From assembly GCA_016179225.1 (NCBI GenBank), contig JACORV010000122.1, positions 1 to 37,849 of the forward strand: a DNA stretch of 37,849 nt. Reading direction: 5' to 3'. Numbering within the stretch: position 1 is the first letter of the stretch; every line of letters starts with the position of its first letter. This document shows positions 17,152 to 37,849 of the stretch, in pieces. A program made the translations under genes and the position numbers. This stretch comes from Gemmatimonadota bacterium. GTDB taxonomy: Bacteria > Gemmatimonadota > Gemmatimonadetes > Gemmatimonadales > JACORV01. Under the pieces are notes generated by a model, which saw only the letters and a program-made list of their open reading frames with translations, had not been told where the DNA came from and ran no database searches.

Positions 17152-18534
17152 TTGATCAACGCGGGCGCCGTCGTCACCGGCCCGCCGACCGGCGAGCCGG
17201 TGCGGCACCCCACCCATGACCACCTCGGCGTGCGAACGGGCGTGGGCGTCGGCGTCGAGGAGGGGCGCATCGCGATCATCGCGCCCGACGAACAGGTGCG
17301 GGATTGGCTTCGTGAGGCGGCTCGCCGGCGGGATCCCGAGCCCGACGGCGGTCGGACCGCACGCAGGGCGCCCGCCGTCGGGCTCGGGACCCCGCCGGAC
17401 TCGCCGGCCGAAGCCCTGGTGGACTGCGAAGGCCGTCTCGTCACGCCCGGCCTCGTGGACTGCCATACGCACGCGGTGTTCGGGAAGCCGCGCGTCGAGG
17501 ATCAGGCGCGGCGCGCGCGGGGGGAGGACTACAAGGGCATCGCGGCCGCGGGCGGCGGCATCCTCTCGTCGGTCGAGGATTTCCGGGCGCGCGGCGAGGA
17601 CGAGCTCCTCGATCTGACGCGGACGCGCGTGCGGCTGCTCGCCGGGCTGGGCACGACGGCCGTCGAGATCAAGTCGGGCTACGGCCTCACCCTCGACGAG
17701 GAGCTGAAGGCGCTGCGCGTGGCGCGGCGGCTCGCCGCGGAGCTGCCGCTCACCGTCGTGCCCACCTTCCTCGGCGCGCACGAGGTGCCGACCGAGTACC
17801 GCCTGAAGCGCGATGGGTACATCCGTCTCGTCACCGAGCAGATGCTCCCCGCGGTCGTGCGCGCGGGACTCGCGTCGTTCTGCGACGTGTTCTGCGAGCC
17901 GGGCGTCTTCTCGATCGCGGAGAGCGAGGCCATCCTCACCGCCGCCACGGCCCTCGGCCTGGGCGCGAAGCTCCACGCCGACGAGCTCGATCCGGCGGGG
18001 GCGGCGGAGCTCGCCGCGCGGCTGGGCGCGGTCTCGGCGGATCACCTCGGGGCGATCCATTCCGCGGGGATCGACGCGCTCGCCGCGAGCGGCACGGTGG
18101 CCGTGCTGCTGCCCGGAACTCTGGTCTTTCTCGGCAAGACGCGGCAGGCCCCGGCGCGCTCCCTCGTGGACAGCGGCGCCATCGTCGCCCTCGCCACGGA
18201 CTTCAATCCCGGCAGCTCGCCGAGCGCGAACCTGCCGCTCATGATGGCCCTCGGCGTCAGCCAGGCGCGGCTCCAGCCGGAAGAGGTGTTCCTGGGAGCG
18301 ACGGTCAACGCGGCGTGGGCGCTGCGGCTGGCGGACGGGCAGGGCCGCTTGACGGTGGGGGGACGGGCCGACATCGCGGTCTGGAACTGCCGCGACGTCG
18401 GGGAGCTCTCGTACTGGTACGGAATGCCCCTGGCGTGGCGGGTTTACGCCGCCGGCCGTCCTTGTCACGGTGGAGAGGCGGGCATATCTTCCGCTGGATA
18501 TCGCGCAGGACCACTCTCGCCGCCACTCTCCTAG
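17152..18534 (+). CDS. hutI: Imidazolonepropionase (start uncertain: TTG 17152, or further upstream in the 17059 ORF) with an in-frame palindromic insert
   Basis: LVTPGLVDCHTHAVFG, AAAGGGILSSVEDFRA, GTTAVEIKSGYGL, PTFLGAHEVP, LHADELDPAGAAELAARLGAVSADHL, ATDFNPGSSPSANLPLMM. Confidence 0.92.
   Translation: MINAGAVVTGPPTGEPVRHPTHDHLGVRTGVGVGVEEGRIAIIAPDEQVRDWLREAARRRDPEPDGGRTARRAPAVGLGTPPDSPAEALVDCEGRLVTPGLVDCHTHAVFGKPRVEDQARRARGEDYKGIAAAGGGILSSVEDFRARGEDELLDLTRTRVRLLAGLGTTAVEIKSGYGLTLDEELKALRVARRLAAELPLTVVPTFLGAHEVPTEYRLKRDGYIRLVTEQMLPAVVRAGLASFCDVFCEPGVFSIAESEAILTAATALGLGAKLHADELDPAGAAELAARLGAVSADHLGAIHSAGIDALAASGTVAVLLPGTLVFLGKTRQAPARSLVDSGAIVALATDFNPGSSPSANLPLMMALGVSQARLQPEEVFLGATVNAAWALRLADGQGRLTVGGRADIAVWNCRDVGELSYWYGMPLAWRVYAAGRPCHGGEAGISSAGYRAGPLSPPLS
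17325..17398 (+). repeat. In-frame palindromic element, copy 1 (in hutI)
   Basis: 27-nt arms 17325-17351 / 17372-17398 with one mismatch; 20-nt loop TCGGACCGCACGCAGGGCGC (17352-17371), identical to copy 2 in alaS. Confidence 0.9.
18462..18490 (+). promoter_or_regulatory. Putative sigma-70-like promoter for the TPR gene, inside the hutI 3' end
   Basis: TTGTCA (18462-18467), 17-bp spacer, TATCTT (18485-18490). Confidence 0.5.
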
Positions 18535-18546
18535 ATTTCCGGGCGC

Positions 18547-36288: not shown

Positions 36289-36302
36289 ATTTTGCAGGCT
36301 CT

Positions 36303-37849
36303 ATGCTAGCTGCCACGATCCGTCGCCGCTTTCTCGATTTCTTCCTCGCGCGGGGCCACCGCGAGGTGCCGTCGTCCTCGCTCGTCCCCGGCGACGATCC
36401 GACGCTGCTGTTCACCAACGCCGGCATGGTGCAGTTCAAGCGCACTTTCCTTGGCGTGGAGCACCGGGACTACCGGCGCGCCACCACCGCCCAGAAGTGC
36501 GTCCGCGCCGGCGGCAAGCACAACGACCTCGAGCAGGTCGGCCACACCGACCGGCATCACACCTTCTTCGAGATGCTGGGCAACTTCTCCTTCGGTGACT
36601 ACTTCAAGCACGACGCGATCGCGTTCGCCTGGGAGTTCGTGACCGGCTCGGAGTGGCTCGGGATCGACCCCCGCCGCATCCGCATCAGCGTCCACCACCA
36701 GGACGCCGAGGCGCGGAAGCTGTGGCGCGAGGTCGCGGGGCTCGACGACGCCCGGATCTACGGCCTGAGCGACCAGGACAACTTCTGGCAGATGGCTGAC
36801 ACGGGGCCGTGCGGGCCGTGCAGCGAGATCTATGTGGACCTGGGCGAGCCCGTCGGCGTGGGCCCCGAACGCTCCGGCGGTCGGACCGCACGCAGGGCGC
36901 CCGCCGTCGCGTTCGGGACCCACGCCTCCGGCTCGCCCGCGAATGCGGCTCAAGTCAGCGACCACATCCACTCCCTGGACGAGTTCGTGGAGGTCGCGGA
37001 GGCCGGGCGCTTCCTGGAGATCTGGAACCTCGTGTTCATGCAGTACGACCGGCAGCCCAGTGGCGAGCTGGTGCCGCTGCCCGCGCCGTCGGTGGACACG
37101 GGCGCCGGGCTGGAGCGCATCGCGGCGGTGATGCAGGGCGAGCAGTCGAACTTCCACACCGATCTTTTCTTGCCGCTCATGAGTCGCGCGGAGGCGGCCA
37201 TCAGCCAGCGGTACGACCGGGGCGAGGCCGGCGCGCCGTTCCGCGTGCTGGCCGATCACGCGCGGGCCGTCGCCTTCCTGCTCGCCGACGGCGTCTACCC
37301 CTCGAACGAGGGGCGTGGCTACGTCCTCCGGCGCATCCTGCGGCGCGCGGTGCGGCACGCCTACCTCCTCGGGCGCCGGGAGCCGACGCTGGTGCACCTA
37401 GTGGACGAAGTCGTGAAGACCATGGGGAGCGTGTACCCCGAGCTGGTGAAGAGCGCCAAGCTCCTCGCCGACCTGACGACGTCCGAGGAGGAGCGCTTCC
37501 TCGAGACGATCGACGGCGGCCTGAAGCGCATGGAGCAGCTCACGGCGGTGAGCGCCGAAGAGGCGTTCAAGCTGTACGACACGTACGGTTTCCCGATCGA
37601 CCTCACCGAGATCGTCGCGTCCGAGCGCGGGATACCGGTGGACGTCGCCGGCTTTGAGAAGCTGCTGGGCGAGCAGCGGGAGCGGTCACGGAACGCGGCG
37701 GCTCGCGCGCAGGGCCCCGGGCGCTCCGCCGGTCGGACGGCACGCACGGCGCCCGGCGTCGCGCCCGGGACCCCGCGCGCTCGCGCCGCCGTGTGGGTCC
37801 GCGTGAAGCCTCGGCTTCGCCAGCGCTGGGTAGGCTACGAGACGACGAA
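36303..37849 (+). CDS. alaS: Alanyl-tRNA synthetase, N-terminal part (runs off the window) with two in-frame palindromic inserts
   Basis: TLLFTNAGMVQFKRTFLG, AQKCVRAGGKHNDLEQVGHTDRHHTFFEMLGNFSFGDYFK, EIWNLVFMQYDR, PSVDTGAGLERIAAV. Confidence 0.96.
   Translation, partial: MLAATIRRRFLDFFLARGHREVPSSSLVPGDDPTLLFTNAGMVQFKRTFLGVEHRDYRRATTAQKCVRAGGKHNDLEQVGHTDRHHTFFEMLGNFSFGDYFKHDAIAFAWEFVTGSEWLGIDPRRIRISVHHQDAEARKLWREVAGLDDARIYGLSDQDNFWQMADTGPCGPCSEIYVDLGEPVGVGPERSGGRTARRAPAVAFGTHASGSPANAAQVSDHIHSLDEFVEVAEAGRFLEIWNLVFMQYDRQPSGELVPLPAPSVDTGAGLERIAAVMQGEQSNFHTDLFLPLMSRAEAAISQRYDRGEAGAPFRVLADHARAVAFLLADGVYPSNEGRGYVLRRILRRAVRHAYLLGRREPTLVHLVDEVVKTMGSVYPELVKSAKLLADLTTSEEERFLETIDGGLKRMEQLTAVSAEEAFKLYDTYGFPIDLTEIVASERGIPVDVAGFEKLLGEQRERSRNAAARAQGPGRSAGRTARTAPGVAPGTPRARAAVWVRVKPRLRQRWVGYETT
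36842..36938 (+). repeat. In-frame palindromic element, copy 2 (in alaS)
   Basis: Arms of about 38 nt around the loop TCGGACCGCACGCAGGGCGC (36881-36900), which is identical to the hutI copy. Confidence 0.9.
37695..37790 (+). repeat. In-frame palindromic element, copy 3 (in alaS)
   Basis: Arms around the loop TCGGACGGCACGCACGGCGC (37733-37752), 18/20 identical to copies 1-2, the two changes being mutually compensatory. Confidence 0.85.

Follow-up and report, generated by a model that had tools for sequence, protein, structure and literature searches.

Palindromic segments within hutI and alaS

What kind of sequence can lie, as a palindrome with the same loop, inside both a hutI-like amidohydrolase gene and alaS and leave both reading frames open? 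The window (the whole stretch of DNA analysed, 37,849 nt) holds three such copies, all on the plus strand. One is in the hutI-like amidohydrolase ORF (17059-18534, plus strand), where it spans 17327-17396 (arms 17327-17351 and 17372-17396, loop 17352-17371). The other two lie in alaS (36303-37849, plus strand, cut by the window end). Site 1 occupies 36842-36938 (arms 36856-36880 and 36901-36925, loop 36881-36900) and has an outer stem in which 36842-36850 pairs with 36930-36938, and site 2 occupies 37708-37777 (arms 37708-37732 and 37753-37777, loop 37733-37752). The loop, TCGGACCGCACGCAGGGCGC, is exact in hutI and at alaS site 1 and carries two changes at alaS site 2. Shuffled versions of the window gave a mean of 0.07 loop matches, and none of 100 shuffles reached three. 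The preliminary description had reported this layout around a 20-nt loop, the arm sequences and the three encoded peptides, and all of them were borne out on rechecking, with reading continuing in frame. It had also listed 17325-37790 as one feature, which is instead the distance spanned by the first through the last copy.

Copies across the source genome

The source genome (G000) is a MAG of 1.81 Mb in 154 contigs and is 72% complete. It contains 21 matches to the loop when up to 3 mismatches are allowed, and the covariance-model search proposed earlier (model R1, built from 17 copies) found at least 23 copies of this family, hereafter family 1, about 20 of them beyond those in the window. 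Besides hutI and alaS (two copies), the host genes code for SelA, a DnaE2-like polymerase, an MFS transporter, DnaX, an ImuB-like protein, a ComF-like protein, uracil-DNA glycosylase (two copies), an E2 acyltransferase, whose linker holds two copies, and a GDSL lipoprotein. These host identities are Pfam families, and any naming finer than the family is our own reading. The remaining copies are intergenic or at gene ends. The intragenic copies run both sense and antisense and in differing frames, so that the common orientation and frame described earlier hold for the three window copies but not genome-wide. The use of either strand and of several frames, together with the intergenic copies, indicates that the nucleic acid is conserved and not a peptide, and an explanation by a conserved peptide was rejected because the copies are read in several frames.

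At two loci (L025 and L028), tandem partial copies consisting of the left arm and half of the loop lie to the left of the elements, and those at L025 repeat a peptide block within the GDSL lipoprotein. At a third (L034), the element appears by eye to be nested in another, tandem-repeat hairpin (GGAGTCGTA ... TACGACTCC).

Element anatomy and covariation

Family 1 consists of a nearly fixed 20-nt loop atop a stem of about 25 bp, with unpaired notches at constant places. Outward from the loop, the order is 6 pairs, a TC/TC notch, 9 pairs, an often mismatched pair 18 and 7 further pairs. Beyond the 7-pair segment comes an unpaired stretch, after which many copies add 5-9 more pairs as an outer stem; these outer stems outscore all 300 shuffled flank pairings. 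The stem letters differ greatly among copies and pairing is retained: identity between copies is 0.94 in the loop vs 0.57 in the arms, 20 of the 22 modelled pairs show both-sided changes, and 92.0% of cells are paired, compared with 63.7% after shuffling and 36-48% when the partner is slid. The preliminary description had allowed that covariation might prove no better than in shuffles, and it exceeds every shuffled and slid control. Among 484 cells in the source genome, 437 are Watson-Crick, 14 are A-C and 1 is G-T, and the mismatches of a second family described below are skewed the other way (15 G-T to 5 A-C). This inequality hints that one particular strand folds, the numbers being small.

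Orthologous sites in related genomes

The orthologue alignments and the search for unoccupied sites that had been suggested were carried out on relatives, and both hutI and alaS site 1 behave as insertions. The hutI segment is present in the source genome and G001, which belong to one genus, and is missing from the orthologues in G002, G003 and G005. At alaS site 1, G002 shows a clean gap of 75 nt (25 codons), and solved alanyl-tRNA synthetases are likewise without the segment. The G002 target retains a small hairpin (GGGCGAGCC/GGCTCGCC), as it would if the element had inserted into a hairpin or if a deletion had left its base behind; at the same site, we take the sequence in G004 for a decayed antisense copy. 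G004 has nothing inserted at the DnaE2-like site, where G001 and G002 hold other palindromes, and some relatives have empty sites upstream of recG and of rplU. Most orthologues, including some from the same genus, are without the segment, which argues against its being conserved native sequence. Visual inspection of the alaS and DnaE2-like sites revealed no target-site duplication, and this weighs against an explanation by a mobile element.

Some sites are occupied by differing copies. In the linker that holds alaS site 2, G002 carries an antisense copy whose arms are unrelated. At selA, the copies of the source genome and G002 are opposite in orientation and have similar arms (score 34, rank 3 of 572; unrelated pairs reach 30), which, judging by the sequences, may reflect inversion in place. 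A different possibility is that no element moved and that template switching at short inverted repeats built and homogenised hairpins where they stand. Local quasi-palindrome mutagenesis of this kind would account for unrelated palindromes at the same sites in relatives and for arms that change jointly. However, an identical 20-nt loop at about 20 unrelated loci argues strongly against it as the sole cause, and correction of one arm by the other would remove the recurrent TC/TC notch; we consider this process very unlikely to be the explanation.

Between orthologous copies, none of the changed pairs at hutI is compensated, and at the GDSL-lipase site compensation is seen in 3 of 13. As changed pairs are mostly uncompensated, decay dominates after insertion. 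This pattern also bears on whether the hairpins are functional structured RNAs or DNA-binding sites, each selected at its place. The conservation of structure in both families and the skewed wobble mismatches, with their hint of one folding strand, would suit such a role. But the copies occur in both orientations within genes, orthologous sites are empty, orthologous copies change mostly without compensation, and Rfam gave no match at the elements at gathering thresholds (a relaxed E-value returned only hairpin look-alikes far under threshold). Selection for a local function is thus very unlikely to be the explanation.

Range of family 1 and a second family in the same genomes

When R1 was run over 395 genomes of the phylum with strict filters and few candidates scored per genome, family 1 was found only in G000, G001, G002 and G004. 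Three loci in G004 and G002 (L054, L059 and L061) hold relatives of family 1 whose loop is about 9 nt longer. Matches of R1 in the f3 genomes proved to be other palindromes made of GTCGGACG-type repeats and not family 1. The exact loop pattern gave 15 single matches among GTDB-220 contigs, in unrelated organisms, which we read as chance; it gave none in viral contigs, and no similar DNA was found in plasmids.

A second family, missed in the preliminary description, is present in the same window and was traced from palindromes that occupy sites in relatives where family 1 is absent. Its window copy (32193-32278, plus strand) lies in a linker of ftsK (31608-33920, plus strand), the domains of which were checked, and its outer GCCGGC segments are at 32193-32198 and 32273-32278. 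The design is that of family 1, namely a conserved loop (GGCGAGCACTGTCGGGGCGCAGC) with arms that vary and remain paired. In 8 copies, 93.0% of cells are paired and the covariation score is 0.627, vs 0.169 when shuffled. Model R2 found 5 copies in G000, 3 in G001, 8 in G002 and 3 in G004 but no copy in a further 36 genomes, so that among the genomes searched the range of family 2 equals that of family 1. All copies found of either family come from two genera within a single family, which by our assignment belongs to Gemmatimonadales. A tandem duplication bearing family 2 was suspected in the source genome but was not confirmed.

Mobilising enzymes and known palindromic elements

A RAYT/Y1 or reverse-transcriptase partner had been proposed for the hairpins, and neither was found. 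Y1_Tnp (PF01797) is absent from all 7 genomes of the family (G000-G006), including G004, which is 100% complete, though many genomes elsewhere in the order carry it. Reverse transcriptase RVT_1 (PF00078) was detected in none of 9 genomes, the source genome itself being only 72% complete. The empty search weighs against an explanation by a mobile element. It also bears on the REP/RAYT class, short palindromes mobilised by an IS200/IS605-like Y1 (HUH) tyrosine transposase. REPs are also small and dispersed and have intragenic copies. Yet with Y1_Tnp in 0 of 7 family genomes, GTAG beside 0 of 22 copies on either side, and REP stems of 5-13 bp with short loops, membership in this class is highly improbable.

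Palindromes tagged with CGTC (including RPE-4 and RPE-6) form a class described without a dedicated transposase, and kinship with these has somewhat more in its favour. In 9 of 22 copies a CGTC occurs no more than 12 nt to the left of the stem, vs 3 of 22 when a control stretch is used, and the copies are intragenic, in frame and without a transposase. The tag is missing from most copies, however, and the published stems of 8-9 bp, loops of 4-5 nt and CCA-like tail differ from the interrupted stem of about 25 bp and the 20-nt loop seen here; we therefore regard this kinship as unlikely. Intragenic REPs of the GTAG and CGTC types are frequent in replication and repair genes, including DnaE2, and occur also in tRNA synthetases (PMC3733652). 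They resemble the present elements as small ORF-internal palindromes, often in replication and repair genes, and differ in their short stems and loops, terminal tag and, for GTAG types, RAYT partner; neither a GTAG foot nor a RAYT partner is seen here.

The analogy drawn earlier with Rickettsia palindromic elements (RPEs) fits the behaviour of the elements, which are in-frame palindromes with empty orthologous sites, RPEs being compared by description. Both are palindromic, dispersed, in frame in functionally unrelated genes and without a known transposase of their own. RPEs, of about 150 bp, belong to another phylum and reportedly have sequence and a conserved peptide in common, whereas here just loop and structure are shared, and sense, antisense and several frames are used, so that no conserved peptide is encoded. 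PARCELs (PMC2996958) are likewise coding sequences with dyad symmetry that are apparently mobile; they are tandem 25-residue amphipathic protein repeats, unlike the present copies, which are dispersed and keep no peptide. The coding palindromes of Nematomorpha mitochondria (PMC6649704) are also long inverted repeats in functional protein genes, but their arms encode conserved native protein, in contrast to a hairpin inserted in variable loops.

Interpretation and proposed mechanism

The copies are dispersed, inserted relative to orthologues, placed in frame in variable linkers and loops, and conserved in structure. We consider it probable (about 70%) that they represent a small palindromic DNA element of about 90-100 bp, dispersed and non-autonomous, which proliferated in one Gemmatimonadales family. 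This rests on the 23 copies, the covarying stems, the loop identity of 0.94 vs 0.57 in the arms, the empty and lineage-restricted sites, and the second family of like design and the same range. The earlier suggestion of a proliferating in-frame hairpin is supported accordingly by some 20 further copies, empty orthologous sites and covariation above controls.

For such an element, we propose an active phase in which it would be copied as a folded single strand, with a putative trans-acting factor reading the loop together with the unpaired notches at their constant places, so that the stems need only be paired. After insertion, the element would be passive. Insertions breaking frame or fold would be lost, and in-frame ones in permissive loops would persist and probably be translated. 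The arms would then decay, and uncompensated changes in orthologous copies are expected under such decay. The great divergence of arms, which extends to young copies and includes lineage-specific ones, weighs against this account and could reflect either long-lived parallel lineages or arm renewal during copying. A wider proposition, which we put forward tentatively and hold to be doubtful, is a class of mobile hairpins of at least two families that is recognised by loop and shape and not by stem sequence, uses neither Y1 nor reverse-transcriptase machinery, and within one bacterial family has repeatedly extended the linkers of proteins that serve replication, repair and translation.

In-frame palindromic elements are already known as RPEs and intragenic REPs, best from Rickettsia and scattered REP hosts. 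What is new, with RPEs compared by description, is this family with its fixed loop and freely varying stem. These presumed Gemmatimonadales offer two families with empty sites, orthologous copies and same-site reversed copies, which make testable both the spread of palindromes that have no known transposase and the reshaping of essential proteins. The fixed loop and covarying stem suggest what a putative mobilising machinery would read.

Other palindromes

Other long palindromes in the window, at 15283-15412, 21987-22057 and 33924-34020, are apparently intergenic, and their arms are short tandem-repeat runs (e.g., GTTGAAGAGTTGAA... pairing with ...TTCAACTCTTCAAC). Similarly built tandem-repeat palindromes occur at other sites in relatives. 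A near-perfect 35-nt palindrome, GGCGGCTGGCGCGCGCCAGGCGCGCGCCAGCCGCC, lies at 4391-4425. At the site upstream of rplU where the source genome has family 1, G008 has a GTAG-footed palindrome, GTAGGGGCGCAGCATGCTGCGCCCCTAC (L181); G008 carries Y1_Tnp genes, and this palindrome would fit a REP.
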